From NCBI GenBank assembly GCA_030035585.1, contig CM057472.1:88843601-88907600 (forward strand): a stretch of 64,000 bases of DNA. Reading direction: 5' to 3'. The position numbers were made by a program, and so were the translations under genes. Positions 31,648 through 41,869 of the stretch are shown one piece after another. Below the pieces are notes generated by a model, which did not search any database, was not told where the DNA came from, and saw nothing but the letters and a program-made list of their open reading frames with translations. How positions within the stretch are numbered: position 1 is the stretch's first letter; every line of letters begins with the position of its first letter. Source of the stretch: Dugong dugon (taxonomy: Eukaryota > Chordata > Mammalia > Sirenia > Dugongidae).

Positions 31648-31651
31648 TAAT

Positions 31652-32038
31652 TGATAATATAAATCATTGATGCAAAATGGAGTCACTCATGCTTGGCCCA
31701 CATCAGTAAGCCAGCAGAAAACAAGTAAAGTCTGTCGCGTTCCTGTTTAGGAGGACTCCACCAATTTCCTGTATTTTCAGGGCCTCATCAATTTCCTGTT
31801 TTAAACAAAAAGCAGTTAGATTATTACAGAAGTTGTTTAAAACCAAGCCAACCAATCCTCAGCTGTCATCCAAGTAGCTAAAATTTCCTATATGCTTGTT
31901 ACTATAAAACACTGACCCTTTTCTTTGTTGCCAGGAAGCTCCTGTCTGACTTCCAGGCTGGATGCTTCCTGATCCACAAATCTCTAAATAAAGCTTTTGA
32001 GTTCTGCAAATTAACTTTGTGAAGATTTTGTTTTAACA
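31652..32038 (+). repeat. 5' LTR of the provirus
   Basis: The 387-bp LTR opens TGATAATATAAATCATTGAT and ends AACA. A TATA-box-like TATAAAA lies at 31903-31909 and the polyadenylation signal AATAAA at 31987-31992, in U3-R order. It aligns without a gap to the 3' LTR over the first ~29 bases and the shared ATGGAGTCACTCATGC block. By eye the two LTRs differ at roughly one site in eight to ten, which points to an old insertion. Confidence 0.93.
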
Positions 32039-32042
32039 GTTT

Positions 32043-32065
32043 TGGCAAAGAGGAAGAGATCCGAA
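32043..32065 (+). promoter_or_regulatory. Primer-binding site, best fit tRNA-Ser
   Basis: Begins TGGCAAAGAGGAAGAGATCC four bases after the 5' LTR. Compared from memory with the complement of the 3' end of tRNA-Ser(GCT), 18 of 23 positions agree; other common retroviral primers (Pro, Lys, Arg, Leu, His) fit less well. Serine priming is known for ERV-S elements, which fits the class III look of pol. Confidence 0.6.
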
Positions 32066-32206
32066 GTAGACCATTAGCACTTTACAGAGATCGTGAGAAA
32101 TGCAGGCATGGTGCCACCAAACCCTTTGTGTTCTCTGCCTTTTTTACAGCTTCCAGAGAGGCTGGTGAGTCTCTCTTGGATCTGAGCTCTGTGACTTTGT
32201 TGTGTC

Positions 32207-32370
32207 TCCAGGACTAGTGGGTCAGTTATATGAAATTGGCATTTGACTCTACTTTGTGGGCTCCAAGTCCCTACTCCTAAGTATGTTTCCAGACCAGGGC
32301 TAGTAGGCCAGTTATGTGAACTGGCCTTTGATTCAACTTTGTGGAGCACCAGTCCTTAGCCCTAGATAAG
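32207..32370 (+). repeat. Leader tandem duplication, ~81 bp
   Basis: TCCAGGACTAGTGGGTCAGT at 32207 recurs as TCCAGACCAGGGCTAGTAGG at 32288. Both units continue through a TTTGA-TC-ACTTTGTGG block. It lies between the primer site and gag, where retroviral packaging sequences sit; any role is inference. Confidence 0.75.
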
Positions 32371-32436
32371 TCCACAATCTCTTCTTGATAGTGTTCGTTT
32401 TGTTGCACACATTTGAAATGAGGTGGATTAGTCTAT

Positions 32437-33080
32437 ATGTTGAAGATGAGCTCTTTATGTTCTAAGAGATCAGGCACTCCAACTTCTGGAACTCCCACCT
32501 TAAAAATTTTGGACAAGGAAGTTGTACCATCTTACAAAAAAAATTGCAAAATCTCATTAAAGATTTTGGATTACAATGGCCATTGTGGGAAACTTTTCAA
32601 TGAGATAAACTGGTCTATTTGAGAGGAAAACTCAAGGAAAAAGTCCTCTAATGAAATAAAGGGAATGGAATGCTTATTTTAATTGGTATGCCAAGTCATC
32701 TAGGAGGTCTCAGGAATCTAAAATGGCTTAATTGTAAGATTTATTACAAAAGGCTAATGAAAAGTTAAAAACTCGAGAAACTTCAAAGATAGATGATCAT
32801 CTAGGACAAAGACTGATGTGACTTCCTCTGCTCTCCCAGTCCAACTCTATCCTTCTTCACCTGAATATTCACTGTCTGCTAACCCTCTATCTTAACTCCC
32901 TTTCTTCACTAAGGACTGACTTAGCTAGAGAAATAGAGCAAAAGGATAATAAACAGAAACCAGGACAGCATTAAGCCCCTCCTCTAGAAGAGAACAAAGG
33001 GCTGGAGTAGCAGCCAGGATAGAAACTCCTGTGTGCCTTCCATGAAGCCCTGACCAAGGTTCCCCTAAAGGTAAGGCCAT
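32437..33080 (+). pseudogene. gag remnant (matrix-like piece, rest lost)
   Basis: Gag would form the virus core. Shortly after the first Met at 32437 a frame has a GTPT.KILDKEV stretch and, one frame over, a short block with WP..WETF, typical of the matrix region of gamma- and ERV-L-type gag. A Pro/Ser-rich stretch follows at about 32818-32890. No capsid major homology region and no zinc knuckle can be found in the ~650 bp before protease, so most of capsid and nucleocapsid appears deleted. Confidence 0.55.
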
Positions 33081-33177
33081 TTTGGAGGACTGGAGGCCAA
33101 ACAAAAGATCCTGGTTTGGGTTGACACTGGAGCTGAACGTACTTTGATTCATGGTAACTCACATAAACTTGCAGGTC

Positions 33178-33234
33178 TTATAAGATTGCTATAAGTTTGC
33201 ATTGACTTGACAGCAATGTTTTTTTTTTTTTTTA
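33178..33234 (+). mobile_element. AfroSINE 3'-tail fragment with T run
   Basis: TATAAGATTGCTATAAGTTT then GACTTGACAGCAATG and a run of T. It matches the SINE tail only and lies immediately upstream of a second, full SINE. Confidence 0.75.
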
Positions 33235-33245
33235 ATGGCCTATAT

Positions 33246-33458
33246 AAGAGCCCCAGTGGCGCAGTGGTTAAATGCTCAGCTGCTAACCAAAAGCTCTATG
33301 ATGTGGACCCACCAGCTGCTCCACGGGAGAAAGATGTAGCAGTCTGCTTCCATAAGGATTTACAGCCTTTGAAATCCTATGGGGAAGTTCTACTCTGTCC
33401 TACAGGGTTGCTATGAGTTGGAATCAACTAGACCACAGTGGGTTTGGTTTGGTTATTT
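33246..33458 (+). mobile_element. AfroSINE-type SINE in the protease
   Basis: Head GAGCCCCAGTGGCGCAGTGG, with the long-form middle block (TTCCATAAGGATTTACAGCC) and tail GGGTTTGGTTTGG. Perfect 11-bp duplication ATGGCCTATAT at 33235-33245 and 33459-33469. Confidence 0.93.
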
Positions 33459-33689
33459 ATGGCCTATATTGACACCGGTAAATGGGAAAAAAATCATAAT
33501 GCAAATTAGGGAGGCTCTTCCTTCTACCTTTTAGGTTTATAATTTTCCTGTTCCAGAAAACATACTGGGCATTGACACTTTGCCTCAAGCCTCCCTAAAA
33601 ACAATGGAAGAATTCTGCTTGGCTTGTGGGCTAAGAATGTAAACCCCAGTTCTTCAAGATTGGGCTAAATTAGAGCCATTTTCACTACC

Positions 33690-34435
33690 TCAATCCCAGA
33701 GAAAAGTGAACAAAAGCAGTACCAGTTGCCAGGATGTCACAAGAAAATCACACAGACTGTAATAAATTTTTTTTTAAAAAAGGGCACGGATCATTCAGCA
33801 GGCTCAGAACCCTTACAATAGCCCAATGCAGCCCATTCATAACATGGACAAAACATGGGAAATGACAGTGGATCACCAAAAACTAAATAATGTAACTAGA
33901 ATACTTTCACCTTGCAAGAGGCCCAAGAACTAGAGGCTATAAAAGAGAGGAAGCCTTTTGAATTATTGTTACAAATGATGGCATGGGATGGGCTCTATGA
34001 CAAAAAAAAAAAAAAAAATAGAGAGACAGCCCATAGGATTCTGGTCACCGTTATTTAAAGATGCAGAGATGTGCTACAGTCTAATAGAGAAACCATTCTT
34101 GGCCTTGCACAATGCACTGTTACAAACAGAGGGCCTCGCTAGAGGAGCATAAGTAAAGGTAAGAACAGCATGCTCTATAAAGGGTTGGATAAAGGGCCCC
34201 TTTGCCAAGCAGTGGACAGCTGTTGCAATGAGTAGTACCTTAGTGAAGTGGCATGTCTATCAGCAACAATGTGGTAAATTGTTCCCTAGCCCCCTCTCCA
34301 AAGAGTTACAGAAATATTTAGGACCTATCAAATTTACACAAGAAATACCACTGGCCACCAACAGATACTTCTGGTATGCCCTAGGCATGTCAAGGAGGGG
34401 CAGGCACACCCCTGAAGGACACCTGCTACATGGAT
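33690..34435 (+). pseudogene. pol: reverse transcriptase (core deleted) and connection domain
   Basis: The N-terminal fingers of reverse transcriptase are recognisable by a PYNSP block at about 33810 and the W..TVDHQ.LNN..T stretch at about 33855-33895. The palm with the catalytic Y-x-D-D box should follow but is missing: the sequence goes within ~80 bp to a late region (QELEAIKR-like, then PIGFWSPLFK at about 34030). The connection domain follows as an open stretch at 34228-34443 with TLVKW and SPLSKELQKYLGP. The reading frame shifts several times and an A run lies at about 34003-34018. Confidence 0.82.
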
Positions 34436-35490
34436 GGTTCTAGTATAGGCCAGCCCCCCTGAATGTTCAGCCACTGCTACCTACAATGGCGTCCCTAGGG
34501 GTGTGTGGGGGATTCAGACTACACCAGGTGACACTGTCAGAGGGGGTGACACCAAAATGACTATAAAATTTTTGTGCTGTGTTTCAGCAGAAATTTATTA
34601 TTATTTATAAAAATATCCCTGTTGTTATAACAACAACAACAACGAAATTTTTTTTCTTAAGCCCAGCTTATATGTATCAATATACCTACAAAGCTAAAAT
34701 TCGATGCAAATTTACCTTTTTAACCTTCTACTGTGCTCCAGTCAGAGCTTTCAGTATTACCCAATCACAATGATGCTTCAAATCACATGGTTTCATCCAC
34801 ACACGTGCTACAAGCACCTGTTATTGTTTTCATCCTTGCTGATGTTTTTATAGTCGCTGATTTTGTCAAATTTTCTGGTGTTGTAACTACAATATGTGGT
34901 AATTAGTATTTATGAGCCTATATCAATAACTTTTTTGAGAATGAAGTAGTAAATAAAAGAAAGAGTGACATACAGGAATTATGATTTATAAGTAACATTA
35001 GTACAAGAAACATTACTAAGGATTCTGTATGGTCTGGTACGGGAGGAGGTCCATGGGGTGGGGGGTGGTTATATCATGAGTTAATGCACTGGGTGACACC
35101 ATCCCTAAAGACACCATTGACTGTCTACCCCAGTAGTGATAAAAACCATCTGGATAAAAACAGGTATTGGGTGCAGTAGCCAGTTGGCAGAACTGAGGGC
35201 AGTTAGGCTAATAACCACCCAAGAACCCCATCTGCTATTTGTACTGACTCTTGGGCAGTAATAAAAGGCCTCACCCTGTGGAAATCTCAATGGGAAAAAG
35301 ATAGTTGGGAAATTAACAAGAAACCTTTGTGGGGGCAGAAATTATGAGAAGATATCTAGGACAAATTGCAAAAGCCCAGTTCCAAAGTGACTGTGTATCA
35401 CATCCCAGCACACATAGCAAATTCTCTGCTGGATAATATAGAAGATGCCCTGGCAGCTGTGAGGGCAGTTGACACCATCAATAACTTAGA
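34425..35490 (+). pseudogene. pol: RNase H domain, split by an insert
   Basis: RNase H would degrade the RNA strand during reverse transcription. Landmarks in order: a YMDGSS box at 34427-34444 with the first catalytic Asp at 34433-34435; after the insert an AELRAV box near 35187; a TDSWAV box near 35243-35260; and a HIPAH...DALAAVRAV stretch at 35400-35470. That last stretch, with a His but an ERV-L-style spacing, supports a class III relationship. The element 34498-35099 splits the domain. Confidence 0.83.
34498..35099. mobile_element. Unclassified 602-bp insert in RNase H
   Basis: The RNase H reading resumes exactly after it, and CGTCCCTA / CATCCCTA (34490-34497 and 35100-35107) flank it as an 8-bp duplication with one mismatch. 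It opens GGGGTGTGTGGGGG and ends GCACTGGGTGACAC. GGTGACAC occurs near both ends in the same orientation, but no convincing terminal inverted repeat can be seen. There is no poly-A tail. The interior is AT-rich with (AAC)n at about 34630-34642. Confidence 0.6.
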
Positions 35491-35579
35491 CATAGCCATG
35501 TGGATACATAAAAAAGAGGGCATTGAAGTATTCAAACCACATAAAAACTATCCCAAGGAGCAGGACTCACCACTACTAG

Positions 35580-35647
35580 AAAAGAAGTAAAATGGGCTTT
35601 TGAAGAGTGTACAGTATGTTGCCCCAAGTGCCCATCTTCATTAAGGA
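35580..35647 (+). pseudogene. pol: integrase N-terminal zinc-finger remnant
   Basis: A frame with WAFEECTVCCPKCPSS at about 35592-35637 gives the Cys pair of the integrase HHCC zinc finger. It is cut at the SINE/L1 insertion and the pol reading resumes at about 39264. Confidence 0.7.
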
Positions 35648-35746
35648 TGTTGTTGCTGTTGTGTGCCATCAAGTCGATTCTGACTCATAGTGACCCTATA
35701 GAACAGAGTAGAATTGCTCCATCGGGTTTCCACAACTATAATCTTT

Positions 35747-38700
35747 TTTAAAATATAATTTGATTTATTTTGTTGCTGTTGTTGAGAATATACACAGTAA
35801 AACATACACCAATTCAACAGTTTCTACATGCACCATTTAGTGACATTGATTACATTCTTTGAGTTCTGTAACCATTCTCAGCCTCCTTTTCTGAGTTATT
35901 CCCCTCCATTAACATAAATTCACTGCCCCCTAATGTTCCTATCTAATCTTTCAAGTTGCTGTTGTCAATTTGATCCCATATAGTTCTTAAGAGTATAATG
36001 CTCAAGGCAGACCTTTTTTTTCACTAGTTAAGCTAAAACTATTGTTTGGTTTTAAGAAGACTTCATGGAATATTTTTGGTTTAAGATTTAAAGATTATCT
36101 CAGGGCAGTAGTTTTAGGGGTTCATCCACCCTCCATGGCTCCAGAAAGTCTAGAGTCCACAAGAATTTGAAATTCTGTTATGCATTTTTTCCCCTTTGAT
36201 CAGGATTCTTCTCTTGAATCTTTGATCAAAATATTCAGCAATGGTAGCCAGACAACATCCAGTTCTTCTTGTCTCGTGACAAAGGAGGCAGTTGTTCATG
36301 GAGGCAATTAGTCACACGTTCCGTATCTCCTCCTATTCCTAACTCTCCTTCTTCCTCTGTTGTTCCAGGTGAATAGAGACCAATTGTGCCTTGGATGGCC
36401 ACTTGCAAGCTTGTAAGACCCCAGACAGTATGCACTGACTAGGAGGTAGAACAGAGATACTAAATATATTATTACGTCAATTAACTGTGATATCCCATGA
36501 AACCATGACCCTAAACCTTCAAACCAAGGAACCAAATCCCATGAGGTTTTTGGTTGTATATAAACAGCCTCAGAAGCTACTTTTTGTTTTTGTTGTTGTT
36601 GTAAATATATCTATCACACAACTTTTGCCAATTTAACTTTTTATAGGTATACAACTTATTGACAGCAATTACAATAATTGGTTGTGAACCCTACCCTTAA
36701 TCAACACAATATCTCCATCACTGTTAACTCCCCCCTTTCCACCTGCCTCCTACCCTTGGTAACCACTAATAAACTTTGTTCTCTATATATTTGCCTTTTA
36801 TTGTCTTTTTATGTAAATGAGGTCATACAATATTTGTCCTTTTGTGATTGACTTATTTCACTCATCATAATATCTTCCAGCTCCATTCATATTGCAGCAT
36901 GTATCAAGACTTCACTTCTCCTGTTGGCTGAGTAGTATTCCACTGTATGTATGTACCACATTTTATGTATTCCTTCATCTGTTGTTGGTGGGCGTTTAGG
37001 TTGTTTCCACCTTTTGGCTATTGTGAATAGTGCTGCAATGAACATTGGTGTACAAGCTCCTGTTTGAATCTCTGCTCTCAAGTCTTTTAGGCATATACCT
37101 AGAGTGAAATTGTCGGGTGATATGGTAGTTCTATTTTCAGTTTTTTGAGGAAGCGCCATACTGTTTTCCACAATGGCTGTACCATTTTCCATTCCTATCA
37201 GCAATGGATAAGTATTCCAATTTCCCCCCATCCTCACCAACATTTGTTTGTTTTCTTTTAATCTTAGCCATCTTAGTGGGAGTGAAATGGTATCTTATTG
37301 GGTTTTGATCTGCATCTCTCTGACAGCTACACTGAGCATTTTTTCATCTGTTTGGTGGCCATTTGAACGTCCTTTTTGGTGAAATGTCTATTCAAGTCCT
37401 TTACTCATTTTATGATGGGGTTATTTGTCTTTTTGTTGTTAAGTTGTCAAAGTTTTATATGTATTTTATTTTTTTGATTCTTGCCAGACATATGGTTTTC
37501 TCCCAGTCAGTAGCTTGTGTATTTTCACTTTTTTGGTAAAGTCATTTGATGAACAAAAGTTTTTAATTTTTATGAGATCTCATTTGTCTTTTGCTGTTTG
37601 TACTTTTGTTATTATATTAGATAATCCATTGCTAAAAGCTACACCTGACAGCATTGCCCCTGCATTTTCTTCTAAGAATTTTATGGTTTTAGCTTGCACC
37701 TTTAGGTGCTTGATCCATTTTGAATTTGTTTTCGTGTATGGTGTGACGCATGGATCCTGTTTCATTTTTCTGCATGTGGAAATCCAATTTTCCCAGCACC
37801 AGTTATTTAAGACTCTTCTTTCCCCATGAAATGGCTTAACACCCTTGTCAAAAATCAGTTGACCATAGATGTGTGGGTTTATTTCTGGACTCTCAATTTT
37901 ATTCCATTGGTCTATGTGTCTATTGTTATACCAGTACCAGGCTGTCCTGATTACTGTAGCTGTATGATATGTTTTAAAATAAAAAATTGTGAGTCCTCCT
38001 ATTTTGTCCTTCTCTTTCAACATTGCTTTAGTTATTTGGGGCCCCTTGCCATTCCATATAAAGTTGAGGATTGGTTTTTCTATTTCTGTAAAGAAGGCTA
38101 TTGGGATTTTGATTGGGATTGCATTGAATCTATAAATTGCTTTGGGTAGTATTGGCATCTTAACAATATTAAGTATTTCAATCCATTAACATGGAACATC
38201 TTTCCATTTATTTAAGTCTTCTTCAATCTCTTTCAGCAGTGTTTTACAATTTTTATTGCATAAGTTCTTCATGTCACTGGTTAAATTTATTCCTAGGTAT
38301 TTTGTTCTCTTAGATGCTATTGTTAAAGAAATTGTTTCCCTAATTTCCATTTCAGATATCTCATTGCTGCTGTATAGAAACCCAGGTGATTTTTGTTTGC
38401 CGACCTTGCAACCTGCAACTTTGCTAAATTCCTCTATTAGATCTAGAAGTTTTCTTGAAATCTTTTTCTGATTTTCTATATATAGGATCATACCATTTAT
38501 GAAGAGAGATAATTTTACTTCTTCTTTTCCAATCTGTATATCTTTTATTTCTCTTTCTTATCTTATTGCTCTGGCTAGGACTTCTAATACAACATTGAAT
38601 AGATGTGCTGAGAGTGGGCACGCTTATCTTGTTTCTGATTTCAAGGGGAAAGTTCTCAGTCTTTCTCCTTTAAGTATAATTTTGTCTGTTGGCTTTTCAT

Positions 38701-39134
38701 ATATGCCCTGAATCATATTGAGGGATTTCCTTTCTAATCCAGTCTTCTTTAGGGTTTTGAAGAAAGGGTGTTGGATTTTACCAAATGCTTTTTCTGCATC
38801 CATAGAGAAGTTCATGTGGTTCTTTTCCTTTGTTCTATTGATGTGGTGTATTATGTTGATTGATTTTCTAAAGTTGAACCATCCCTGCATTCCTGGAATA
38901 AATCTCACTTGGTCATGGTGTATGAATCTTTTAATATGCTGATGGTTTCTGTTCTCTAATATTTTGTTGAGGATTTTTATTTTGTTGAGGATTTTTGCAT
39001 CTGTATTCATAAGAGATATTAGCCTCTAGTTTTCCTGTGGTTTTTTTTTCTGGTTTTGGTATCAGGGTTATGTTTGCTTCATAGAATGAATTAAGGAGTA
39101 TTCCTGCCTTCTCTATCTTTTGTAAGAGTCAAGG
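35747..39134 (-). mobile_element. 5'-truncated L1
   Basis: A perfect 11-bp duplication CTATAATCTTT, at 35736-35746 and 39135-39145, is made of SINE sequence. The T-rich left edge is the poly-A tail in reverse, and the copy stops inside ORF2 at the right. It carries ORF2 fragments and the same 3'UTR family as the L1 at 6845-14665. Confidence 0.95.
37580..39010 (-). pseudogene. L1 ORF2 reverse transcriptase / C-terminal fragments
   Basis: Minus-strand stretches of 128 codons (38624-39010), 101 (38186-38491), 192 (37580-38158) and 118 (36887-37243) follow each other as one broken ORF2. The first has the [16 protein letters not shown] block of L1 reverse transcriptase. The catalytic FADD box expected near 38490-38510 reads as a changed sequence (roughly FINGM), so the copy is catalytically dead. 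The 192-codon piece has the [10 protein letters not shown]...LKEKD.IGGL block typical of the L1 C-terminal part. Confidence 0.92.
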
Positions 39135-39251
39135 CTATAATCTTTATGAAAGTAGACCGCCACACCTTTCTCCTGTGGAATGGCTGGTGGGTTCAAACAG
39201 CTGACCTTTTGGTTAGCAGTTGAGTGCTTAACCGTTGCACCACTAGAGACC

Positions 39252-39600
39252 CTTACTTAAGGAGAAGACAGGACATATTAAAAGTGGTGAGGATCCTTTA
39301 CAGATTTGGCAAATTGATCACATTCACCCTCTCCCTAAAAGTAAGGGTTATCAGTTTACTCTCACATGTGGGGATACCTACAGTGGAATACTTCAAGCTT
39401 TCCCTACTATAAGAGCTAATTAGAATGCCACCATTTGGGGTTTAGAAAAACTAATATTCAAGTATGGAACTCCTAAAGAAATTAACAATGATCAGGGGTC
39501 TCACTTTACAGGGACCCTTGTGAAGCAATGGGCCAAAAAAACAAGGTATGGAACACCCAGCCAGGGAAGGCCCCATAAGCTGCAGAAGTAATAACAAAAG
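39252..39600 (+). pseudogene. pol: integrase catalytic core remnant, ERV-L-like
   Basis: Integrase would join viral DNA to the host chromosome. The first catalytic Asp is in a WQIDHI box (GAT at 39315-39317), followed by a SKGYQFTLTC then DTYSG...LQAFP block. The second Asp lies in NNDQGSHF (GAT at 39490-39492). The DTYSG...LQA wording is characteristic of ERV-L-type integrases. A stop (TAG) lies at about 39420 and the frame decays after 39560; the catalytic Glu region is not clear. Confidence 0.85.
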
Positions 39601-40118
39601 GAAGAAATAATACCAGTTATATTTTAATAGAAAATAATGAAGGTCATACTTATGTACCCGATAAGTTTCTTTATTTCTGCTACAAGATATTCACCCCTAG
39701 TATTGGAAAGATTAACATTATGGCTAAAATTCAGATTTTACAGAAATTCTTTTAATCTGCCCTAAATGACACTGAGCACTGACTGGCTGCCTTAAATGAA
39801 GAAACTGAGCTACAAGAAAGGTAGTGTTGCAAAACTAGACAGATTTTGACACGATTACTGTGGTGCAAGGAGGCACCTGTGCTATACTAAAAGTTGAATG
39901 TTGTCTATATATTCCTGATAATGAAACTACTGAATCACTTCCTCATATATTTATAGATACAATTAGATCTTGGAGATGATATTTGGTGGACTGAGATCAA
40001 GGGGTGGTTCTCTGGATGGGGAACCTGGTGGAAGAAACTACTATTGGGATTATTATGTATAATAATTGGAGGATATTTCATTGCTCTTGTCTATATTGTT
40101 GGTGTGGGTTTTGCTTGA
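39600..40118 (+). pseudogene. First envelope remnant (transmembrane subunit)
   Basis: The transmembrane subunit of a retroviral envelope protein drives membrane fusion; only a dead relic is present. An LQN-Q-L heptad-like stretch lies near 39813-39850. A CX6CC motif follows, with its three Cys codons at 39878-39880, 39899-39901 and 39902-39904. One frame over, a W-rich stretch (near 39984-40045) leads into a hydrophobic membrane anchor of about 25 residues that ends at a TGA at 40116-40118. The frame is broken between the motif and the anchor, and a surface subunit is not recognisable. HERV-L and MuERV-L lack an envelope gene, so its presence after an ERV-L-like integrase is notable. Confidence 0.78.
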
Positions 40119-40385
40119 AATGTTTTACAACATTGGGACATAAGGCTCTAGTGATATGACTCCCTTCACATGCAGGCTTTGAGGCAATCACAGAAGAGGG
40201 AGGCACATGAGATTGTAAGAGGTGGGCATGAAGGATTCATTGAGAGGGCCCTGAACAAGATAGATCCTGCCCATAAAGGACTCTGGGAAAGAACCAGAAT
40301 ACCTGCCTGAACAGTGACCTGGGCAAGAAAAAAAAAACACACCAAACACCTTACTTCATGATAACGTTAATTAGAATTCATTAGC
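40119..40385 (+). other. Junction segment between first envelope and pol C-terminal piece
   Basis: One frame stays open for about 45 codons (40155-40300, rich in charged residues), then an A run at about 40327-40337. I see no LTR, SINE or duplication here that would explain how the two retroviral blocks were joined. Confidence 0.4.
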
Positions 40386-40389
40386 TAGT

Positions 40390-40570
40390 ACAAAAACAGC
40401 CCTAGAGCCACAGCTGAAGGGACCTTATCATATTCTTTTACCACTGACACTGCTGCCAAACTACAGGGTATTAAACTGTGGATGCTTATTTCCTAGCTTT
40501 AATTGGCTCCACCTAACTCTTGGTCCTATCTGCCCACTGGAGACCTGAAAATCAAGCTAATCAGAAAGAG
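40390..40570 (+). pseudogene. pol: integrase C-terminal GPY motif piece
   Basis: LEP-LKGPY with Gly-Pro-Tyr at 40420-40428, followed one frame over by a LTTDTAAKLQGI-type stretch and a tryptophan. This is the C-terminal GPY/F module found at the end of integrase in gammaretroviruses and relatives. It lies downstream of an envelope remnant, which is the wrong order for a simple provirus. Confidence 0.75.
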
Positions 40571-40589
40571 AACTCTATGACATCATGAG

Positions 40590-41290
40590 GTGATCGGCTT
40601 CCTCCTATGATTGCAGATCAAGAACCTACAGGATTTTCCTCCCTCACCCCTATCCTTGTCATTCTCAGTGTTGTTTTCTGCCTTCCTCTCTTGATATACC
40701 ACTATCTATAACGAAGGGTTTTTTTTTCCCCCCCACTTTATTTTCCCTCTCCTCACTATATTTTCCCTCTCCTTGGCCTGGGGATGATAACTCTGTAATT
40801 TTCCCAAGTCATAGCCAAAAGGAGAAAACTTACCAACTGCTGGATTTGTCATTTTATTCATGACTGTTAAGACCCATTGACCCTTCCCATAACTAATTTT
40901 TCACCTCAGAAAATATTGAAAAAACCACTGTTAAGGCAATAACAACCCAAGAAAAGTCTAGATTGCTTGGTTAAAGTTGTTCTAGACGACAGGATATCCC
41001 TTGACTGTCATCTTTCTGAGCAAGGAGGAGACTGTGCAGTGGTTAATATCACTTGTTATATTTAAATTAACACTTCTGGAGACTGCATAAAATAATAAAA
41101 CAAGTCACTTGGTTTAAAGAGGCAAAATTATCCTTGAAGATCATTTTTGATCTATTTGATTTCAGCTGGTTTGAGTCATGGAGACCTTGGCTCCAAAGTA
41201 CTCTCCAGACTGTGGGTATTCTTCTAACAGTTATAATTGTAGTCTCCCTGGTGTACTAAATTCTCTGAAAAGTCTTAAATGTGTGTTCAC
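40590..41290 (+). pseudogene. Second envelope remnant (gammaretrovirus-like)
   Basis: A hydrophobic leader-like stretch lies at about 40640-40700. The surface-subunit CXXC motif reads CWIC at 40838-40849. A transmembrane-subunit stretch VVLDDRISLD with E-QGG-C follows at about 40975-41035. The CX6C motif has its Cys codons at 41033-41035 and 41054-41056; the expected last Cys is a Tyr codon (41057-41059). A W-containing pre-membrane stretch and a hydrophobic anchor lie at about 41169-41260. CXXC plus CX6CC is the signature of gamma-type envelopes with disulfide-linked subunits. The surface subunit is far too short and the frame has stops and shifts. Confidence 0.78.
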
Positions 41291-41474
41291 GCCACTAATG
41301 CATCAACAGATGATTTCACTAAGGCTAAAACAAAAGAAGCATGAAAAGAACTGTGAGAACAACATTGTACCTGCAAATACTATGCAAATCACATCAGAGC
41401 GACCATGCAGTGACTGAGAGTGGTGCTCTGCCTTAAATTTTGATCACATCTCTCAAAGACTTGAGAGTATGATC

Positions 41475-41487
41475 AAAAAAGGGAGAA
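41475..41487 (+). promoter_or_regulatory. Polypurine tract
   Basis: AAAAAAGGGAGAA directly before the 3' LTR (one T lies between). It would prime plus-strand DNA synthesis. Confidence 0.88.
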
Positions 41488-41488
41488 T

Positions 41489-41863
41489 TGATCATCTAAG
41501 TAATTAACCCAAGATGGAGTCACTCATGCTGGGCCCACATCAACATGCCATCTGAAACCAAGTAAAGATTCCTGTTTGTCAGGACCCATTGATTTCTTGT
41601 TTATCAGGACTTCACCAATTTCCTGTCTTAAATGAAAAGCAGTTAGACCATTACAGAAGTTGTTTAAACCCAAGCCAACCAATCCTCCGCTGTCATCCAA
41701 GTAGGACTAAACTTTCCTATGCTTGTTACTATAAAACCCGAACCCTTTTCTTTGTTCCGTGGAAGTTCTAGTCTCAATTTCAGGCCAGTTGCTTCCTGAT
41801 TCATGAATCTCTAAATAAATCTTTTCAGTTCTGCAAATTAACTTCGTGAAAATTTTTTGAACA
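41489..41863 (+). repeat. 3' LTR of the provirus
   Basis: The 375-bp copy starts TGATCATCTAAGTAATTAAC and ends GAACA. It has ACTATAAAACC (TATA-like) near 41730 and the polyadenylation signal in CTCTAAATAAATC at about 41810-41821. Followed by TAAT at 41864-41867, which matches the 5' flank. Confidence 0.93.
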
Positions 41864-41869
41864 TAATGC

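Follow-up and report, generated by a model that had tools for sequence, protein, structure and literature searches.

A dugong provirus with two envelope remnants and a foreign LTR fragment, probably descended from template switching between class I and class III retroviruses

How can one provirus hold two envelope remnants with a piece of integrase lying between them? The question is raised by a locus of Dugong dugon, contained in a stretch of 64,000 nucleotides analysed as a whole (hereafter the window), for which the initial annotation had proposed a mosaic of an ERV-L/ERV-S-like and a gamma-type virus, amplified or fixed with one LTR pair. The pair itself is present: the LTRs at 31652-32038 and 41489-41863 start with TG, end with CA and carry TAAT on both flanks. 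From this pair and its target-site duplication, it follows that the provirus integrated once at this site, with both env remnants, a divided integrase and a stray fragment of U3 inside one LTR pair. Three blocks are enclosed, the outer two class I-like (family B) and the middle one, 32915-40398, belonging to family A, as listed below in window coordinates.

31648..31651: left copy of the target-site duplication TAAT, matching 41864-41867
31652..32038, plus strand: 5' LTR of class I family B, TG...CA
32043..32060, plus strand: decayed primer site, fitting tRNA-Ser(GCT) best of the seven tRNA ends compared
32109..32915, plus strand: class I (B) gag-side remnant, from its position and 75-81% identity to L037
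32913..32917, plus strand: 5' joint, B to A, placed by alignment
32915..35633, plus strand: family A remnants of the gag end, pro and RT/RNase H
33248-33470: SINE-like unit interrupting the family A remnants
34480-35145: insert interrupting the family A remnants
35640..39250: later insertions interrupting the A pol (SINE-like units, minus-strand L1-like DNA, an AfroSINE-like unit)
39255..39552, plus strand: family A integrase core, class III
39553..40240, plus strand: 3' end of the family A coding region, holding TM remnant 1 of class I type (CX6CC; anchor ends at 40115)
40241..40398, plus strand: first 158 nt of the family A LTR, the remainder being missing
40392..40398, plus strand: 3' joint, AAAAACA, 7-nt microhomology between A LTR and class I integrase
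40399..40603, plus strand: class I (B) integrase C-terminus with GPY, 76% identity to L037 over 40392-40603
40604..41474, plus strand: class I (B) env remnant 2, with CWIC at 40838-40849 and TM at 40943-41256
41475..41485, plus strand: polypurine tract, by sequence
41489..41863, plus strand: 3' LTR, family B
41864..41867: right copy of the target-site duplication TAAT

Regarding the interruptions of the middle block, the SINE-like, L1-like and AfroSINE-like units within 35640..39250 are missing from L027 and L029, two A copies in which 39255 directly follows 35633 or 35628. The insert at 34480-35145, about 665 nt long, is missing at this place in L025, L027 and L030. At 39541-39552, where the A integrase core ends, about 490-585 nt present in the A copies have been lost from the window. 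The B gag-side remnant gave no Pfam match in the two pieces scanned, and ARAGORN found no tRNA within the window.

All the motifs on which the mosaic had been proposed were found again, namely the integrase core aspartates, CX6CC and its anchor, GPY, CWIC, CX6C and the second anchor. The aspartate codon at 39490 stands, and the first one is at 39316 instead of 39315. The cysteine codons of TM1 lie at 39878, 39899 and 39902, with the membrane-anchor piece ending at 40115; GPY is at 40420-40428, CX6C at 41033-41056 and the second anchor within 41071-41256, downstream of the CWIC. Taken piece by piece, the protein matches are weak: in Pfam, the second integrase piece resembles rve (E 0.0027), and TM pieces 1 and 2 resemble TLV_coat (E 0.017 and 0.087), all below the curated cut-offs, and the other seven of the ten window pieces matched no retroviral family. 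Among solved structures, TM piece 1 (39839-39976) is nearest to Syncytin-1 (E 0.004), TM piece 2 to MLV P15 (E 0.023) and the integrase piece to PFV integrase (E 0.09). The GPY piece, which matched nothing in Pfam or PDB, is assigned to integrase because it aligns with L037, in which the integrase frame is longer. Such scores would suit chance motifs or an assembly error, but this reading is refuted by the recurrence of both TM regions and of the 3' joint as DNA homology in independent loci, and its probability is negligible. As the TM1 and TM2 regions recur at about 69-84% DNA identity in other loci of the same genome, the doubt left by the single-piece scores is removed, and the order of integrase core, TM1, integrase C-terminus, SU/TM2 and LTR is real on the basis of this homology.

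The middle block was traced by a search of the dugong genome itself (3.16 Gb) with the query 40119-41488, in which 40 of 173 candidates were scored. The matches form two main sets, one ending near 40402 and the other starting near 40908, and a few more span both sets or start at 40392-40402. From the same genome, 17 stretches of 9.9 kb were fetched, seven of which belong to family A (L024-L030). In four of these seven (L024, L028, L029 and L030), the 40241-40398 piece is found at both ends, with A-type internal sequence between them in the order of the window; in L025, L026 and L027, only its 3' copy lies within the fetched stretch. By alignment, the full A LTR is about 420-440 nt long, begins with this piece and runs on to an AATAAA-like signal; in L024 and L029, its end is followed by what looks like a primer site for tRNA-Ser. 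Since the same piece stands at both ends of A copies and continues there to a full LTR, 40241-40398 is identified by homology as a foreign LTR relic, the first 158 nt of the LTR of family A. A separate match at G000:C26:141363577-141363834 consists of two adjoining partial A LTR matches.

The pol of family A is assigned by protein similarity to the foamy/ERV-L-like kind, class III. The integrase frame of the A copy L029 is closest to foamy virus integrase (3dlr, labelled integrase only, E 7.4e-12; PFV integrase entry, E 1.8e-11), with other retroviral integrases at 4e-6 or weaker and a few designed-protein matches in between, and it also matches Pfam rve (E 3.5e-8). A protein database search with an A integrase frame gave two unnamed matches. 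Meanwhile, the TM of the A block is of class I type, from the Syncytin-1 and TLV_coat matches of the window piece given above, the latter below the curated cut-off; the TM frame of L029 had no TLV_coat match. The primer site of family A best fits tRNA-Ser(CGA), among the seven tRNA ends compared, in two of the three copies looked at (L024 and L029), the slice of L028 having missed the site. Between the A integrase core and the TM motif (window 39553-39840; L024, L025 and L029), there is roughly 0.8-0.9 kb, which also holds the integrase end. This is too little for a surface subunit (SU) of the usual size, and family A may have spread with an SU-poor env.

As for the outer blocks, L037 matches the window at 32109-32915 and again from 40392 (40392-40603), with nothing between at the nucleotide level and two short integrase-region matches inside the A block at the protein level. 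With L037 homologous to both flanks of the A block, the outer blocks are assigned to a single class I-like family, B. No Pfam rve match was obtained for the L037 integrase frame, and its best PDB matches are HTLV-2-type integrases (E 2.7e-5), followed by PFV integrase (E 0.003), so the class I label of B rests on the GPY region and TM2; in the protein database search, a B integrase frame found nothing (0 of 24 candidates). The tRNA-Ser(GCT) fit of the B primer site is clearer in the relative L038, and both parents, A and B, may have used serine tRNAs. In addition, a 4-bp target duplication is typical of gammaretroviruses, and that of the window (TAAT) is 4 bp, as for class I or gamma-like elements. 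A class III middle block between class I-like flanks thus bears out the proposed mosaic of an ERV-L/ERV-S-like and a gamma-type virus.

The 3' joint, where the A LTR is cut at AAAAACA inside the class I integrase, is found at the identical base in L021, L022, L023 and L044 as well as in the window, that is, at five loci. L044 was added by a second search with the joint of L021, which also recovered the window (40 of 135 candidates scored); most of the other matches listed do not extend beyond the A LTR piece. L045, considered as a further copy of the joint (query 14-194), was rejected, being an ordinary A LTR. The four other loci lie on four contigs (C1, C2, C6 and C26) and make up a family C of at least four copies, with class I RT and integrase, the TM and LTR start of A inside the integrase, and then a second env. 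An RT match was obtained in both C copies tested (L022, E 1.3e-5; L023, E 2.7e-7), and the integrase core of L023 resembles that of L037. L021-L023 enter A from inside the integrase at about 39686, as L044 does by continuous similarity to L021, and L021-L023 leave A at the same joint as the window. Downstream, a second TM follows in L021, and L044 is similar to L021 there. Family C therefore has the same two-env arrangement as the window, with a shorter A piece, on a class I backbone that differs from B.

The complete B-A-B combination was seen at one locus, and its 3' joint at five. The sequence running from the A LTR through the B integrase to 40603 was found only in the window among five scored candidates, and the 5' joint at 32913-32917 only in the window among two, in a search of low sensitivity that missed the known relative L037. 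The idea of a mosaic amplified or fixed with one LTR pair holds for the pair and its duplication, but what recurs in four other loci is the joint, in the other backbone C, and the exact combination occurs once. An LTR relic between the two env remnants had been named as the sign of a separate later insertion. Such a relic does exist, at 40241-40398, but its cut lies within integrase, at a microhomology and on the same base in five loci, and the relic is therefore the mark of a recombination joint, not of a separate later insertion.

We infer that the provirus descends from a recombinant retroviral RNA, made by template switching between a class I virus and the class III family A, and give this reading a probability of roughly 0.8. 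Class I RNA and the ERV-S-like RNA of family A would have been co-packaged, and minus-strand synthesis would have started at the 3' end of the class I RNA, copying the LTR, env and integrase C-terminus. At AAAAACA, the polymerase would have jumped onto the LTR start, on the U3 side, near the 3' end of the A RNA, then copied the TM, pol and part of gag of A before jumping back to class I at about 32915; in C, the return to class I would have occurred at the integrase instead of gag. The recombinant product would then have integrated here once, giving the LTR pair and the TAAT duplication. As the integrase reading is split in both the window and C, the enzymes were probably supplied in trans. 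Template switching is favoured by the sharpness of both joints, 32913-32917 and 40392-40398.

Two accounts at the DNA level compete with this one. An A provirus could have inserted into a B provirus, with later deletions removing the A 5' LTR and gag start, most of the A 3' LTR and the B pol; the A LTR piece at the 3' edge of the A block, the shared orientation of A and B and the age of a much rearranged locus (L1-like and SINE-like inserts, the deletion at 39541-39552) would all suit such nesting. It is nevertheless very improbable, as four other loci, of a different class I family, share the exact base at which the A LTR is cut, the cut sits at a microhomology inside integrase, and scans of the A block show neither an A 5' LTR nor a complete A LTR end. 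Ectopic exchange or gene conversion among integrated A, B and C proviruses could draw on relatives of all parent families in the same genome, but the joints are non-homologous, with a few nucleotides of microhomology at most, the mosaic is enclosed by an LTR pair with a clean TAAT duplication, and the four joint-bearing C copies come from four different contigs, making this account improbable as well.

Within the template-switching reading, it may be asked whether the window and C inherited one 3' joint or acquired it twice. A common joint is the somewhat favoured answer, resting mainly on the identical base. Since the class I backbone of C differs from B, a single origin requires a second exchange; the alternative is two switches at a common hot spot. 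The latter, independent switches at the AAAAACA hot spot, one into B (the window) and one into C, have the microhomology as a natural hot spot and the differing backbones on their side, as well as most of the trees, which lack a firm union of the window and C A-blocks. Thus, 11-row trees unite the window with C in the LTR part at a support of 0.05 and place the window with the A copy L028 in the env part at 0.88, and the diagnostic sites of the window are divided, six shared with C and nine with A. A 12-row tree of the whole block unites the window and C at 62/27, and the best 12-row trees of its two parts do not; forcing them together costs 0.56 log units in the LTR part and 1.71 in the env part (p-AU 0.41 and 0.29), so that their union is neither demonstrated nor rejected by these tests. 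Two separate switches are nonetheless rather unlikely, because the same base is used in all five loci, a tree of 19 A-LTR pieces (the window, three C and 15 A, with ten identical rows dropped and L044 left out) joins the window with C at a support of 0.78, and the account with the fewest joints is one joint followed by a later homologous exchange. The fullest version of the common-joint reading can be offered tentatively, at somewhat less than even chances: a single ancient jump, landing in the U3 of an ERV-S-like RNA of class III, would have produced a two-envelope recombinant; its joint would have moved through two class I backbones and multiplied despite splitting the integrase, and these mosaics would have formed a lineage, in an ancestor of the host, that was mobilised in trans and recombined repeatedly.

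The nearest described kinds are the human Harlequin and HERVS, and the present case joins the themes of both across classes, with two envs left. Harlequin is a mosaic ERV of humans (Kapitonov and Jurka 1998, after PMC4724089) with the structure LTR2-HERVE-MER57I-LTR8-MER4I-HERVI-HERVE-LTR2; according to the part of PMC4724089 consulted, it is multi-copy, with a foreign LTR8 inside, and is attributed to co-packaging and polymerase jumps. It shares with the dugong provirus the presence of several ERV families within one LTR pair and of a truncated foreign LTR, here 40241-40398. However, the HERV parts of Harlequin are class I, as far as that part of PMC4724089 describes them, whereas here a class III pol/TM/LTR block lies within class I and two envs are left; moreover, the hosts differ, and the likeness is one of description, not of sequence.

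HERVS, or ERV-S, combines a class III pol with a class I env in the consulted portions of PMC4724089 and PMC8278194. Family A resembles it in its foamy-like integrase and class I-type TM, and the primer site fits tRNA-Ser best, among the seven tRNA ends compared, in two of three copies; A differs in being represented by several copies in the dugong genome, with little room for SU between integrase and TM, and the comparison is with the description of HERVS, not with the HERVS/LTR18 sequence. XtERV-S of Xenopus is likewise outlined, in the sections seen of PMC8278194 and PMC10536682, as having a class III gag-pol and a class I-like TM, as in family A, and a serine primer site, which family A may share, but it has one intact env in a simple gene order, and in those sections it is no two-virus mosaic with an internal LTR piece. 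The ERV-L of elephants and sirenians (Greenwood 2004, PMC524511) are class III elements of this host group, presented in the excerpt consulted as tRNA-Leu primed and without env, with one recombinant between two ERV-L clones; that excerpt describes no class I mosaic. Among the listed titles and abstract beginnings of open-access papers, no description of the present mosaic was found.

Outside primates, the locus offers a datable trace of recombination between class I and class III retroviruses, with a joint that kept multiplying afterwards. The cut end of the foreign LTR, lying at a microhomology, indicates where the polymerase jumped, and the shared joint could serve as a marker in other afrotherians, manatee and hyrax among them, for ordering and dating the events.

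Regarding the dates, the LTR pair of the window has a K80 divergence of 0.206 (375 sites), or 0.193 without CpG (366 sites), and slightly different edges give 0.225 and 0.214. Mammalian substitution rates are 1.5-2.2e-9 per site per year, at which this divergence corresponds, as a rough figure only, to an age of roughly 43-75 million years. The own LTR pair of L021 diverges by 0.14, compared with 0.19-0.21 for the window, so that C was still multiplying after the insertion of the window provirus, if the rates are equal; the A copies L024 and L029 stand at 0.18-0.20 and 0.25-0.26. The LTR family of the window has 13 other loci (16 of 16 candidates scored), none of which forms a second LTR pair. 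The four of these 13 that were fetched resemble solo LTRs, their flanks being free of the window's internal sequence for about 1.5 kb in each direction. None of the four revealed a plain provirus, which in this LTR family had been named as evidence against the mosaic. At G000:C13:6035918-6036917, pieces of this LTR family occur several times within 1 kb, which suggests a tandemly repeated LTR segment.
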